IMG/VR virus record: IMGVR_UViG_3300026484_000299
Location: 1 to 28,555 of that record
DNA length: 28,555 nt
DNA from: a virus
Direction: 5' to 3' (one strand)
Shown here: piece by piece, positions 6,187-26,929 of the stretch
Position numbering within the stretch: position 1 is the stretch's first letter
Layout of the letters: the number at the start of each line of letters is the position of its first letter
Notes under the pieces: model-generated
Database searches by the model: none
The model's input: the letters and a program-made list of their open reading frames with translations, nothing else
What the model was told of the DNA's origin: nothing
Position numbers and translations under genes: made by a program

Positions 6187-6732
6187 ATGCAGTTAGTTCA
6201 GATAGTAGAACCAACAAAAACAACAGTTACTCTCATAGAAGCAAAAGCTTTTTTGAGAGTGCTAAGTGAAGATGATGATGCACTGATTACCGATATTATA
6301 GATTCAGCGCAGGAACACACTCAAGATATTTTAAACAGACAACTAGAAAGAGCCACTTATGAGCTATATGCAGATGATTTTATATCTAAACTACCAAAAA
6401 ATCCCATAAGTTCAGTTGATAAGATTGAATATATGAACTCTCAAGGTGATTATGTTGAACTTGATAGCAGTTCCTATTATATTTATGAAAAAAATGGTCT
6501 CTCCTATATAGATTACTATATAATTCCAAGTGCAAAAGCACATCAAAAAGCTATAAAAATAACTTTCACTTGTGGATATAGTAAAGTTCCATCACCTATA
6601 AAATCTTATATGAGAGTGAAGATAGCGACCTATTACGAACATCGTGAAGAGTATGTTATAGGTGTAAATATATCTACATTTAACAACGATTTTATAAACA
6701 ATCTTATCAAATCATACAGAGTAAGACCGTGA
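6187..6732 (+). CDS. Head-tail connector (HK97 gp6-like)
   Basis: This 181-residue product resembles the gp6/adaptor family, whose ring sits beneath the portal and accepts the head-closure protein. The characteristic N-terminal opening is VTLIEAKAFLRVLSEDDDALITDIIDSAQEHTQDILNR in two helices, quoted here only as landmarks around residues 14-50; the middle has the conserved Pro-Ile-Ser-Ser-Val turn (LPKNPISSVDKIEY), and the end has ATYYEHRE. The gene lies 14 bases after the capsid gene and overlaps the next start by 4 bases. Position and pattern agree with a connector. Confidence 0.85.
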   Translation: MQLVQIVEPTKTTVTLIEAKAFLRVLSEDDDALITDIIDSAQEHTQDILNRQLERATYELYADDFISKLPKNPISSVDKIEYMNSQGDYVELDSSSYYIYEKNGLSYIDYYIIPSAKAHQKAIKITFTCGYSKVPSPIKSYMRVKIATYYEHREEYVIGVNISTFNNDFINNLIKSYRVRP

Positions 6733-7052
6733 GAACTGCATCTCTAAGGCATAAAGTAAGGTTTCAAGAGTTAGGAACTGATACAGATGATTTCGGAGAA
6801 CCATCTAGTGAGTGGGAAGATATTGAACAACCCTATCAATACGTTCAGATTATCCCACTCAATGGGTCAGAGAAATATCAAAGTAAGCATTTAAACGCCG
6901 AAGTAAATCATAAAATCCGTATGAGATACAGAGCAGGTTTAAATTCTAGTATGAGAGTGGTTTATGGGGAAAGAATATTTGAAATAGATGCTGTTTTGAA
7001 TGTTTATGAGAGAGATAGGGAGTTGCATATTATGGTTGTGGAGGTTGTTTGA
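6729..7052 (+). CDS. Head closure protein (SPP1 gp16 / HK97 gp7-like)
   Basis: The 107 residues match small head-tail adaptors: the opening SLRHKVRFQELGTDTDDFGEPSSEW is the usual start of this family, followed by a beta-rich body with ADVNHKIRMRYR-like sequence (here AEVNHKIRMRYRAGL) and RIFEIDAVLNV near the end. These proteins plug the connector after packaging and offer a platform for the tail. The GTG start at 6729 overlaps the previous stop (GTGA). This is the last head gene; the next virion gene does not appear until 10729, across the accessory block. Confidence 0.85.
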   Translation: MRTASLRHKVRFQELGTDTDDFGEPSSEWEDIEQPYQYVQIIPLNGSEKYQSKHLNAEVNHKIRMRYRAGLNSSMRVVYGERIFEIDAVLNVYERDRELHIMVVEVV

Positions 7053-7081
7053 TACTAATAGTGTTTTTTTTTAATAAAATA

Positions 7082-7090
7082 TGCTATACT
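7082..7090 (+). promoter_or_regulatory. Extended -10 promoter for the structured RNA
   Basis: TGCTATACT carries an extended TGn and the hexamer TATACT (7085-7090), after an AT-rich stretch with a run of nine T (7064-7072). Transcription would begin near 7097, just before the first hairpin of the RNA. There is no clear -35 element, as is common in Campylobacterota. Confidence 0.5.
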
Positions 7091-7096
7091 TCAATC

Positions 7097-7486
7097 AAGA
7101 AGTTGGTCTTCTGATATAAAACCATCGGAGTTCGTTTTGGACGTCACGCTAAGGATTGCATCTGCAAGGCATTAGCCAACACCCGTAAACCGTGCTAGTA
7201 ATTGGTCTAGCACACTCTTAATGTCGTGAAGCGGGGTTACGACCAGTACATAAGTTTACTTATGTTAGCCCTTGATGGTTTTCAACTGCTATCGTCCTGC
7301 TTCCATCTTTATCGCGATTAGGGATTGTGAGACACGCTTACTTGATTTATCAGGTTTGTTTACCCGTTCGGAGGTTTAAAGTGTTCTTGCCCCTTGTCCT
7401 TTTAATCAGATTCTTTTATGAATGGAGATATTAATTATGCAAGATTTAACAAGAGTATAAGAATTTGCCTAAAAGGCAGATTCTTT
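7097..7486 (+). ncRNA. Structured non-coding RNA, HEARO / IscB-IsrB omega-RNA-like
   Basis: No protein-coding frame covers this stretch, which is richer in GC than its surroundings and full of local helices. Stems seen: 7098-7102 with 7108-7112; 7130-7133 with 7139-7142; GCTAA 7148-7152 with TTAGC 7172-7176, enclosing TTGC/GCAA; GTGCTAG 7192-7198 with CTAGCAC 7207-7213; GTCGT 7223-7227 with ACGAC 7239-7243; CATAAG 7249-7254 with CTTATG 7259-7264; GATGG 7274-7278 with CCATC 7303-7307. Single-stranded segments such as ACACCCGTAAACC look conserved. Length (about 330 before the ORF), order and a downstream start codon with ribosome binding site fit HEARO RNAs, the guide-scaffold RNAs of IscB and IsrB nucleases. 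The RNA character is fairly sure; the family name is from pattern memory and unverified. The 5' leader (about 7097-7125) would hold the guide. Confidence 0.5.
7437..7460 (+). pseudogene. Seven-codon ORF, possible remnant of an iscB/isrB start
   Basis: ATG at 7437 follows GGAG (7424-7427) at ideal spacing, but the frame reads only MQDLTRV before TAA at 7458-7460, where the hairpin begins. IscB and IsrB proteins commonly open with a few residues and then (R)VFVLD...KPLMP, so this could be the very beginning of such a gene with the rest deleted up to the right-end hairpin. Alternatively it is a short leader peptide. Seven residues are too few to prove homology. Confidence 0.35.
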
Positions 7487-7490
7487 ATTT
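7459..7490 (+). terminator. Strong hairpin ending the structured RNA
   Basis: AAGAATTTGCC (7459-7469) pairs with GGCAGATTCTT (7475-7485) over 11 base pairs, one of them G-U, with a TAAAA loop, followed by TATTTAT. It fits an intrinsic terminator for rightward transcription. It may also be the right-end hairpin of a transposon. The stop codon of the leftward ORF at 7485 abuts it, so it could serve both directions. Confidence 0.7.
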
Positions 7491-7657
7491 ATCCGTATTA
7501 TCCCTTTTTTCTTTCGGTTCTACTATCCAAAAATGTTCATATAACCATCTGAATGATGCCCCAAAATTTTTGTCTTTATGCTCGTTCACTCTATGTTCAA
7601 TATAGTCTTTATCCCTTGTGGTATCTCTTCATCAAACACTATATCTTTGTAACTCAT
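7485..7657 (-). pseudogene. Small leftward phage gene with one frameshift
   Basis: An ATG at 7657-7655 with AAAGGA upstream opens a frame reading MSYKDIVFDEEIPQG, which then runs out after 23 residues. One base back (at about 7612-7616, CAAGGGATAAAG) a second frame continues to a stop at 7485, reading DKDYIEHRVNEHKDKNF and FRWLYEHFWIVEPKEK. The joined product would be about 57 residues, without a family I recognise. The two halves look like one gene broken by a single-base deletion; no classical slippery heptamer is present, so programmed frameshifting is less likely. A sequencing error is possible. Confidence 0.4.
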
Positions 7658-7816
7658 TTTAAATTTTCCTTTTACATTATTTTTATATATATTAAGATAT
7701 ACTTTTACTTAACAGACTTCTTCTGTATTGTTAAAGACCATTGGAAATGAGCGACTTGTATCGTTTATGGGATGAAAACTCTCGATACCCTTAAAATTGT
7801 AGCAGTTTTTGGTCTG
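7658..7816. other. Non-coding stretch with three hairpins between leftward genes
   Basis: I see no gene on either strand. Inverted repeats are TTAACA 7709-7714 with TGTTAA 7729-7734 (an alternative pairs ACAGA with TCTGT inside it), GTATCG 7758-7763 with CGATAC 7783-7788, and the hairpin at 7799-7820 at the end of the nuclease gene. The left edge is the leader of the broken gene. A small RNA or an mRNA-processing region is possible. Confidence 0.4.
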
Positions 7817-7820
7817 CTAC
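7799..7820 (-). terminator. Hairpin at the end of the PBECR-like gene
   Basis: GTAGCAG and CTGCTAC form a perfect 7-bp stem with an 8-base loop and include the stop codon of the leftward gene. The following leftward sequence (AATTTTAAG) has only a weak T tract, so termination may be partial. Confidence 0.4.
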
Positions 7821-8227
7821 ACTACTTCATATAAAGTTTTCAAACTTAATACTTTCTTCATGCTAAGATTTAACTTCACTATTTTCACTTTTCTATCTTT
7901 AAGTTGTTTTGTAAATGTAAAACAAGGTATTTTTTTACCTGTTTGTGCCTCTTTGGTTGTGGTTCTGTCAATATTCTTAAATTTATTTAAGTAGTAATGA
8001 ATTTTACAAATATGCTCAATATCATTTGGATGTTCATTTTCAATATGTCTTATTTCATCACTATGGATACTACATCTATAACCTTTCAAGTCAATAAAGT
8101 GTCGTTTCCAAGCGATAGAAATAGTCTTTTCAGTAATCTTAAAAGTAAACTCTTCGGCATATTGTCTATCTTCTAATGATTTTTTAACCAATTCACAAAT
8201 TTTTGCTTCTATCTCTATATCAAGCAC
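7817..8227 (-). CDS. PBECR-like nuclease (Barnase/EndoU/ColicinE5-D/RelE-like), candidate toxin
   Basis: The 136-residue product has an N-terminal charged part and a C-terminal domain with the pattern HSDEIRHIENEHPNDIEHI, a spacer with NKFKNID, a beta strand KVKIVKLN and the ending KKVLSLKTLYEVV. This order (His-x3-RHI-x3-H, then strand-rich region, then KxLxLxTxY) is what I know from phage-Barnase-EndoU-ColicinE5/D-RelE-like (PBECR) domains, metal-independent RNase-type domains usually found inside phage polyvalent proteins. Here the domain stands nearly alone. The GTG start directly follows the stop of the HTH gene (TAG-GTG) with GGGGGATGG as ribosome binding site, so the two are coupled. 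The likely catalytic residues are the histidines and the final Thr/Tyr; this is inferred. A toxin or host-takeover nuclease are both possible. Confidence 0.5.
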   Translation of the reverse strand: MLDIEIEAKICELVKKSLEDRQYAEEFTFKITEKTISIAWKRHFIDLKGYRCSIHSDEIRHIENEHPNDIEHICKIHYYLNKFKNIDRTTTKEAQTGKKIPCFTFTKQLKDRKVKIVKLNLSMKKVLSLKTLYEVV

Positions 8228-24632: not shown

Positions 24633-24716
24633 TGGTACCAGAGATGGGATTTGAACCCACAAGCCCGAAGGCGGCGGATTTTGAATCCGCTATGTATACC
24701 GTTCCATCACTCTGGC
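24633..24716 (-). tRNA. tRNA-Leu (anticodon CAA)
   Basis: The minus strand folds as a class II tRNA: acceptor GCCAGAG with CTCTGGT (first pair G-U), anticodon stem GCGGA/TCCGC with loop TTCAAAA and anticodon CAA, a long variable arm GCC-TTCG-GGC, T arm with GTTCAAAT, discriminator A and an encoded CCA. The 3' end points to the prophage. Prophages commonly integrate into tRNA 3' ends, so this is probably attR; the matching copy would be outside the window at the far left. Confidence 0.93.
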
Positions 24717-24796: not shown

Positions 24797-24838
24797 AATT
24801 AGAATAATATAAAAATATATTTATTGTGGAGGTATATT

Positions 24839-26929
24839 ATGAGAGTAACGTCTAGTATGTATTACGAAAATCTGTATGGAACTAATAACTCTAAAATTCA
24901 ATCAAAGTTTTTTGATGTAAATAAACAGATAGCATCTGGTCTTTCTATTCAATATGCAAGTGATGATGTTGCTACTTTTTCTCAAACGATGAGACTTGAT
25001 AACGAGATTACTGTTCTTCAGCAGATTAAAAGTAGTACAGATAATGGATATAAAATATCTAATCAGACAGATATTGTTTTAAATGAGTTTGAAACATCTG
25101 TGACAAAGATGCGTACTCTTATGATTTCTGCTTCTAATGGAACAAATGATGAAACATCTATGGATGCTATTGCTGCTGAGCTTAGAGGAATAGAGGAGCA
25201 TTTAGTTTCACTGGCAAACACTTCTATAAATGGACAATTTCTTTTTTCAGGGTCGGCTACGAATGTAAAACCGATTAGTGAAGATGGAACATACAATGGA
25301 AATGATATAACATTACACTCATTTTTAGGTTCAAATAAAGAACAAGCTTATAATTTATCAGGAACAGAACTATTTTTAGGTGAAGAAACAGCAGTTAAAC
25401 GTAAAGTGACTACAAATATTATAAATCCAAATCTAATATCAAAATATAAAATACTGCAAACAAGTACGAATACAGATGGTGTAAAAGCATTAAGTGCTTC
25501 TAGCACTATTCGTGAGCTTATGGGCGATACAGATAATAGTACAGCAACTTCAAATCAACATTTTTTCTATGTAAGAGGTGTTGAAAGCGATGGTACAGCA
25601 TTTAATAGTAAAATTGAGATGCAAGATAGAAATAAAATAGAGGATTTACTTGATAAAATAGGAAGTGCTTATGGAAATACATCAAATGTACAATCTGTAA
25701 ATGTAACAATAAATTCTTACGGACAGATAGAAGTAGAAGATAAACTTAACGGATCTTCAAAACTTGATTTTCATATAGTTGGTGCAGTTGATTTTAGTGG
25801 TGGTGGAAAAGCTGATGTTTTAAAAATTTCTGATTTAGATGATGGAGAAACTAACTTTGATGAGATAATAAATCCAACAGTAACACCTCAATTATATGTA
25901 AAAGAGTTTGTACGTTCTCCTTTTTCATCTGCCAATAGTGATATTCAAAATATAGATGCTCTTTTATATGACCAAACACAGTTTACTAAAAATGGCTCAA
26001 AACTCTCTTCAAATGTTTCTCAGATAGTTAAAGGAACAAATGAATTTGCTTCTGCTTCTTCAAAATTAAGAGATGTGGCAGACTTATCGCAAACAAATGT
26101 AAATACATTAGATGGAACTTCATTTAATTTTACAGGGTCGAGTATTAGTGGTAGAAATTTTGATGTACAATTTGATATGAAAAGTAGTGTAAATGGTGGT
26201 TCTTCTTTTACCGTAGATGGAACAGCATATACAATTTTTGATATGGGTACACCCCGTAGTGCAACAGATTCTGATGATATGACATATCAACAGTTAATGA
26301 ATGTTGTTAATATGGTTATGACAGATACATTACCAGCAGATGATACAGTAGAGAGTTTTGATAAAGCGATAACGACAGCAAGTTTCTTAGGTGAAACCGT
26401 ATTAAGTGATGATGGTAAACTTTCTTTTGATGAATTAAATGCTATTGGAGATACTAGAGCAACATTGTCTATGTATGATTCAAACAGTGGAGATTTCTTA
26501 AAACCAGCAAGTGTTCTCTCTTTTAACTCCAATAATGCACTTACTATTAGTGATGCAAAAACAGATTTTTTTAAAACTATTGATGATGTTATTAGTTCAG
26601 TGGAAAACTATAAAACTATAGCAAATGCGAATGTAATTGGTGGAGATATGAGAAATATAGGTATGGAACATTCAATTCAAAGTTTGGATAATATTTATGA
26701 CCATATCTTAAAATCACACTCTAAGGTTGGTGCGCAATCAAATTCATTGTCAGCATCTCTTGAAAGAACAGAACTTTTAGAAATTTCAACAATGACATTG
26801 CGTTCATCTGTTGTTGATACAGATTTAGCAAAAGCATCGTTAGAATTAACACAAATTACACTTAACTATGAGGCGATGCTTTCAACTGTTGGAAAAGTTT
26901 CAAAATTGAGTTTACTTAACTATTTATAG
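24839..26929 (+). CDS. flgL: Flagellar hook-associated protein 3 (FlgL)
   Basis: FlgL forms the second junction between hook and filament and is exported by the flagellar type III system. The start is ATG 24839, giving 696 residues, since GGAGG (24827-24831) fits it; the in-frame TTG at 24824 is rejected. The N-terminal flagellin-like coiled coil is typical: RVTSSMYYENLYGTNNSK, then QIASGLSIQYASDDV with Asn/Asp-rich landmarks, and the C-terminal partner ends SLELTQITLNYEAMLSTVGKVSKLSLLNYL (landmark region 665-696). A large variable part of about 500 residues lies between, as in long FlgL proteins of Campylobacterota. It is a chromosomal gene and belongs to no phage operon. Confidence 0.93.
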   Translation: MRVTSSMYYENLYGTNNSKIQSKFFDVNKQIASGLSIQYASDDVATFSQTMRLDNEITVLQQIKSSTDNGYKISNQTDIVLNEFETSVTKMRTLMISASNGTNDETSMDAIAAELRGIEEHLVSLANTSINGQFLFSGSATNVKPISEDGTYNGNDITLHSFLGSNKEQAYNLSGTELFLGEETAVKRKVTTNIINPNLISKYKILQTSTNTDGVKALSASSTIRELMGDTDNSTATSNQHFFYVRGVESDGTAFNSKIEMQDRNKIEDLLDKIGSAYGNTSNVQSVNVTINSYGQIEVEDKLNGSSKLDFHIVGAVDFSGGGKADVLKISDLDDGETNFDEIINPTVTPQLYVKEFVRSPFSSANSDIQNIDALLYDQTQFTKNGSKLSSNVSQIVKGTNEFASASSKLRDVADLSQTNVNTLDGTSFNFTGSSISGRNFDVQFDMKSSVNGGSSFTVDGTAYTIFDMGTPRSATDSDDMTYQQLMNVVNMVMTDTLPADDTVESFDKAITTASFLGETVLSDDGKLSFDELNAIGDTRATLSMYDSNSGDFLKPASVLSFNSNNALTISDAKTDFFKTIDDVISSVENYKTIANANVIGGDMRNIGMEHSIQSLDNIYDHILKSHSKVGAQSNSLSASLERTELLEISTMTLRSSVVDTDLAKASLELTQITLNYEAMLSTVGKVSKLSLLNYL

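Follow-up and report, generated by a model that had tools for sequence, protein, structure and literature searches.

The window analysed here is the 28,555-nt stretch at positions 1 to 28,555 of the IMG/VR virus record IMGVR_UViG_3300026484_000299, a prophage of a Campylobacterota-type bacterium. It contains a structured non-coding locus (7093-7486) in which two RNAs, RNA-A1 and RNA-B, stand in tandem with no partner gene; both belong to conserved, covarying RNA families, each of which pairs obligately with a protein family and persists where the gene for that protein has been lost. The stretch lies between a head-completion gene (6729-7052, PF05521) and a terminator hairpin, and the ORF (open reading frame) listing of the window gave no gene-sized ORF within 7053-7458, which confirmed a preliminary description of it as non-coding. 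The locus comprises:

7082-7090, plus strand: extended -10 element TGCTATACT, read by eye, about 6 nt 5' of the start of RNA-A1
7093-7215, plus strand: RNA-A1, defined by alignment A3 and its consensus structure, with a leader hairpin, the conserved core TAAAACCATCGGAGTTCGTTTTGGACGT, an arm GCTA..TAGC, ACACCCGTAA and a 3' hairpin with a GGTC loop; partner gene not adjacent
7226-7308, plus strand: RNA-B, a three-way junction GAAGCGGGGTTACGACCAGTAC..CTGCTATCGTCCTGCTTCC; partner gene not adjacent
7313-7400, plus strand: RNA-C, a candidate third module (local fold -22.2 kcal/mol, z -1.3)
7437-7460, plus strand: mini-ORF MQDLTRV (ATG CAA GAT TTA ACA AGA GTA TAA) with GGAG upstream, outside RNA-A and RNA-B
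7459-7485, plus strand: intrinsic-terminator-like hairpin with a 12-pair stem (z -5.3), which closes the array

The promoter and the start codon with its ribosome binding site, both reported in the preliminary description, were found as stated; the extended -10 element was not listed by a generic sigma-70 scan because it has no -35. The stop codon of MQDLTRV overlaps the terminator hairpin, and the mini-ORF, which had been taken for the remnant of a nuclease gene, is probably a chance ORF preceding the terminator. The whole 390 nt folded modestly better than shuffled sequences (z -1.67; 5 of 100), and since this fold barely beats shuffled sequence, helices alone are weak evidence. What exceeded chance at the locus was conservation with covariation in RNA-A and RNA-B (each 0 of 500 shuffles), and the structured non-coding locus is real. 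BLASTN of the locus against plasmids recovered relatives of two distinct segments, 7109-7208 (in Arcobacter cloacae and Sulfurospirillum diekertiae) and 7225-7306 (in Aliarcobacter cibarius), with no annotated gene beneath the matches.

Neither the RNA-A nor the RNA-B family is represented in Rfam 15. Scanning contigs of viruses and genomes with sequence patterns yielded approximately 20 RNA-A loci and further RNA-B loci; individual loci are given L-numbers and individual genomes G-numbers below, and genome counts refer to a sample of 397 Campylobacterota genomes. RNA-A occurred in 16 of these genomes, as well as in plasmids and phages, and RNA-B in 5. The structure shared by the RNA-A sequences of alignment A3 comprises 23 pairs, of which 14 show compensatory changes. 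Among 26 matches to the RNA-A model, 18 of the 23 pairs showed two-sided changes and 93% of cells were paired, against 71% in shuffled alignments (0 of 500 shuffles); this alignment was fitted to the model, adds new genome loci and includes a weak second match in L116 and one at E 8e-4 in L117. In one subgroup the long-range helix reads GATAG/CTATC instead of CGG/CCG, and in L183 it reads CAG/CTG; G-U alternatives such as UA/UG were found in six RNA-A sequences. The frequency of G-U pairs in the given direction and the TATAAT-like boxes just upstream of RNA-A (e.g., in L063, L065, L066 and L076) indicate that the RNA is transcribed from the other strand than the protein gene. For RNA-B, 9 of 25 pairs had two-sided changes and 97% were paired across 9 distinct sequences (0 of 500 shuffles). 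The copy in the window scored 97.7 bits with model R2, which was built from 4 sequences.

Opposite RNA-A in the Campylobacterota loci runs a convergent ORF of about 135 aa that encodes a PBECR3-like protein (PF18812); its stop codon falls within the 3' hairpin of the RNA. The window itself contains such a pair (7709-8227), which is the phage's own module:

7698-7703, plus strand: -10 box TATACT of RNA-A2
7709-7822, plus strand: RNA-A2, a divergent RNA-A that was outside the training set of model R1 and matched it at E 1e-8
7817-8227, minus strand: PBECR3-like predicted endoribonuclease of 136 aa, convergent with RNA-A2, its stop codon inside the RNA-A2 3' hairpin

The window protein matched PF18812 at E 3.9e-6; its 27.2 bits fall short of the cut-off of 30, while the clade member in L076 reached 31.1 bits, above the cut-off. 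In the clade alignment (A2), R60, H61, H66, D69 and T131 were invariant, and histidine and threonine residues such as H61, H66 and T131 are expected for PBECR proteins (PMC5512222). The AlphaFold2 model of the window protein had a pLDDT (predicted local distance difference test) of 82. A sequence search against solved structures gave no useful match, and PADLOC has no model for members of the PBECR3 clade or of protein B.

RNA-B also has a convergent partner, an unnamed protein of 134-145 aa that we refer to as protein B, which ends in a conserved strand such as LVVT-YRK; here too the stop codon of the gene touches the 3' end of the RNA. The protein B genes that face RNA-B are:

L004, 4079-4483
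L039, 8680-9096
L164, 1583-2020
L167, 1573-2007
L180, 2501-2929

Protein B and PBECR3 share the motif R/K-H-I-x3-H and a similar order of helices and strands; the likeness is at most suggestive because the comparison of the two profiles with hhalign was not significant (probability 2%). A gene for a TIR protein (PF10137; PADLOC candidate system PDC-S35) adjoins the phage RNA-B/protein B pair at L039:7874-8671. Because the partners of RNA-A and RNA-B are convergent and RNA-A2 has its own PBECR3, the locus at 7093-7486 is an orphan RNA-A/RNA-B tandem that ends in a terminator.

To avoid the bias of an RNA-driven collection, we searched the 397 genomes with protein profile A2. All nine full-length clade members were directly convergent with RNA-A; the tenth match, a 46-aa fragment, was the sole protein match not adjacent to it. 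Protein-driven searches of viral sequences gave the same association for PBECR3 and RNA-A (2/2 loci) and for protein B and RNA-B (3/3 loci, two of them near-identical). The RNA was found without the protein at 9 of the 18 places where RNA-A occurred in the genomes, the weakest two matches (G270 and G215) being doubtful. Distances among RNA-A sequences and among their PBECR3 partners were correlated (Mantel r 0.79, 0 of 5000 permutations, 18 loci).

Loss of the protein gene with retention of the RNA was visible among related phage loci. The PBECR3 gene is intact in L007 and L183, and a C-terminal remnant alone is left in L006, L068 and L009; in L006 and L068 the RNA-A occupies the slot that matches the window, after the head-completion gene, and L009 shows the same loss elsewhere. 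Similarly, L144 is without the gene, which is present in the syntenic L143. The nearest protein-linked relatives of RNA-A1 are the phage RNAs of L007 and L183. Its distance to the L007 RNA is 0.17 and to the resident RNA-A2 0.48, and RNA-A1 is therefore an unlikely partner of the resident PBECR3. Exactly three pairs differ between RNA-A1 and L006, all by two-sided changes and with no one-sided change, so the fold was held despite the missing gene. Overall, pairs were kept in 93% of cases in orphan RNAs and in 94-99% in protein-linked RNAs. Orphan RNA-A and RNA-B also occur together in one 111-kb phage contig, and in genome G354 they lie 119 nt apart with a truncated protein B. The RNA-A and RNA-B cassettes occupy the same phage slot, beside the terminase gene and a small gene (L007 and L009 versus L039 and L180).

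We propose, with a probability of roughly two in three, that RNA-A and RNA-B are type III-like RNA antitoxins of the convergent small proteins and that the orphan array neutralizes toxins encoded elsewhere. A protein that is never alone, an RNA that often is, a predicted RNase fold and co-divergence of the two together fit RNA antitoxins that bind an enzyme. RNA-A would block the solo PBECR3, a predicted BECR-fold endoribonuclease, and RNA-B would block protein B; as in type III systems, a compact folded RNA would bind the enzyme and inhibit it, here made as a single copy that is transcribed from the opposite strand by a promoter of its own. From a start near 7096, one predicted transcript would carry RNA-A1 and RNA-B, perhaps with a third module, and end at the hairpin 7459-7485. 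The cognate partner genes are gone, so that the phage seems to have retained antidotes and no poisons, and the array is probably kept for its action against PBECR3-type and protein B-type toxins, be they those of rival mobile elements or those of the host, of which some are located in type I-F cas operons. That the proteins are nucleases and toxic, that the RNAs inhibit them and that the array counters toxins is what we infer. The orphan RNAs are best explained as counter-toxins by analogy with pseudo-ToxI of phage PhiTE, a phage-borne RNA that counters a host RNase toxin without a toxin gene of its own (PMC3475682).

Several results weigh against this proposal. The RNase and toxin nature of the PBECR3 partner is a prediction from its Pfam family and fold, and the best structural neighbours of the model, which include CdiA-CT toxins, MqsR and BrnT, were weak (Z 2.5-3.6; VIA Z <4); Foldseek returned no match below E 0.1. 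Protein B had no family match, and its predicted model was too poor to use (pLDDT 47). In the wider PBECR3 family, which consists mostly of large polyvalent proteins, RNA-A was absent from the best 30 loci, and PBECR3 domains in general therefore do not need the RNA. The correlation of RNA and protein distances is also expected from plain co-inheritance. No credible relatives were found for RNA-C at 7313-7400, only short AT-rich matches. Finally, the orphan RNAs could be decaying remnants, although their pairs have been kept.

That last point bears on a reading of the locus as the decaying remains of one or two cassettes that now lack any function. The partner genes are gone, and a small frameshifted ORF follows on the minus strand (7657-7488); however, the changes in RNA-A1 pairs relative to L006 are all compensatory, the two RNAs form a tandem bounded by a promoter and a strong terminator, and orphan RNA-A and RNA-B recur in the 111-kb phage contig and together in G354, which makes a mere relic very improbable. 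It is unlikely, too, that the nuclease requires the RNA as a cofactor or guide, in the manner of omega-RNA or CRISPR RNA (crRNA; CRISPR, clustered regularly interspaced short palindromic repeats), with orphan copies serving nucleases in trans. Obligate pairing and co-divergence would fit a cofactor equally well, and the AbiF non-coding RNA binds and controls its own nuclease (PMC12373285). However, no variable guide-like segment of fixed length was evident in the alignments, and RNAs lacking a partner are as common as pairs (9/18 places) and keep their base pairs, which is easier to understand for an inhibitor. BECR RNases elsewhere are not known to need an RNA cofactor, which also counts against this alternative.

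The convergent geometry and the overlap of the 3' hairpin with the stop codon would suit an RNA that regulates its partner's mRNA, either as an antisense transcript or through a shared convergent 3' structure (type I-like control or transcriptional interference). Yet the overlap spans only about 5-25 nt, is nearly nil in several RNA-B loci and does not include the most invariant part of RNA-A, and the structure is kept after gene loss; we consider such regulation quite unlikely. The preliminary description had instead identified the locus as a HEARO (omega-RNA) whose IscB/IsrB nuclease gene had been deleted. A structured non-coding RNA does precede a short ORF, and the window contains a lone IS200-type Y1 transposase gene (TnpA; PF01797; 187-594, plus strand) near the left end of the record. 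However, cmscan with 4227 Rfam families gave no match to HEARO (RF02033) or any similar model at E<=10 over 6900-7650 and none at the gathering threshold over the window. The relatives of the RNAs are accompanied by convergent PBECR3 or protein B, or by no partner, instead of a downstream IscB/IsrB gene, and no such gene was seen next to any of the relatives. The RRXRR domain of IscB/IsrB was found neither in the window nor in 11 genomes or phages with RNA-A (12 records in all), in a search run without a positive control. Through their partner genes HEARO identity is already refuted for RNA-A and RNA-B, and for the locus as a whole it can hardly be maintained. Instead of a DNA-targeting guide, the RNA is probably an inhibitor of its partner, which is predicted to be RNase-like with a BECR fold. 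The idea that an orphan RNA might work with a partner encoded elsewhere survives in part: the partner gene was lost and the RNA kept, but that partner is not IscB/IsrB.

Under the antitoxin reading, the closest known systems are the type III toxin-antitoxin loci (ToxIN, CptIN, TenpIN and AbiQ), which likewise combine a small folded RNA with a predicted endoribonuclease and occur on phages, plasmids and chromosomes. In type III loci a single operon comprises, in order, a tandem-repeat RNA, a terminator and the toxin gene (PMC5086642), whereas here the RNA is convergent, single-copy and has its own promoter, which departs from the operon layout, and the protein family is PBECR3 rather than ToxN-like. 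The convergent layout seems to be new and does not appear in that review. PhiTE pseudo-ToxI is also a toxin-less phage RNA but consists of repeats of one antitoxin, whereas the window carries two unrelated RNA families. AbiF with its non-coding RNA (abiF motif, RF03085) resembles the pairs in joining a phage-borne RNase to an RNA of about 100 nt; it differs in its HEPN enzyme and in having the RNA upstream in the same direction (PMC12373285). Solo PBECR3 versions in phages have already been noted (PMC5512222). The RNA-linked members described here are a solo clade (A2) and one polyvalent case with an antisense RNA inside the gene (L146), and no RNA partner of PBECR3 is mentioned in Rfam 15, in the Pfam descriptions, in the passages of PMC5512222 consulted or in the open-access literature searched. 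If correct, the proposal would bring to RNA-protein toxin-antitoxin systems two RNA families new to Rfam 15 together with a layout that is convergent and not operonic. It would also supply an RNA partner for some of the PBECR proteins and offer a natural example of several unrelated RNA antidotes that a phage carries in tandem, with the toxins absent.

Four RNA-A/PBECR3 pairs were located inside type I-F cas operons (L066:1934-2458, L073:1040-1564, L076:5752-6279 and L078:6963-7490), i.e., at 4 of about 11 RNA-driven genomic loci. They lie at the cas2-3/csy1 border in L066 and L078 and at the cas1/cas2-3 border in L073 and L076, with the protein gene along the cas direction and the RNA against it. 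Cas1 in L066 and Cas3 in L078 were identified by eye, and in L073 the pair is followed by just an N-terminal stub that resembles cas2-3 by eye (no Pfam match). Chance insertion offers no obvious explanation for this recurrent placement, which makes a CRISPR-guarding role directly testable. CreTA is a toxin-antitoxin pair that also lies beside type I cas genes; CreT is an RNA toxin repressed via a crRNA-like guide and Cascade (PMC9458426). In contrast, RNA-A is probably not made of CRISPR repeats, the predicted toxin is a protein, and some RNA-A loci have no cas genes. It is conceivable, if doubtful, that composite arrays of unrelated RNA antitoxins, each specific for one toxin family and carried on one transcript, form a multivalent shield in phages and hosts, and that cognate RNase toxins, including those in Campylobacterota type I-F cas operons, punish CRISPR-disabling phages and are disarmed by the phage array.

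Orphan RNA-A was also found in another five phage contigs, where it precedes further non-coding blocks that are shared between contigs. Those downstream of RNA-A in L015 and L017 are 82% identical over 56 nt, and those in L008 and L013 79% over 58 nt; the conserved blocks after RNA-A in L011, L015, L017, L008 and L013, all from large phages, may be further RNA modules. Since the RNA-A copies of big phages are embedded in larger non-coding stretches, we considered a GOLLD- or ROOL-like large phage RNA and rejected it: 15 loci gave no Rfam match and had no tRNA genes beside them. In genome G145, an RNA-A with a TATACT box (L146:1501-1632, minus strand) lies antisense inside a polyvalent open frame of 1760 codons, directly after the PBECR domain, and is thus an RNA overprinted on coding sequence.

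In the window, the small frameshifted ORF at 7657-7488 (MSYKDIVFDEEIPQGI..KDYIEHRVNEHKDKNFGASFRWLYEHFWIVEPKEKRDNTDK) has its stop codon abutting the array terminator, in the same geometry as the RNA partners; it had no relatives in the phage collection or in the fetched loci. Toward the right end, a tRNA-Leu (CAA) gene (24633-24716, minus strand) is followed by a flagellar hook-associated-like gene (24824-26929, plus strand), and this site is probably the right boundary of the prophage, with host DNA beyond.
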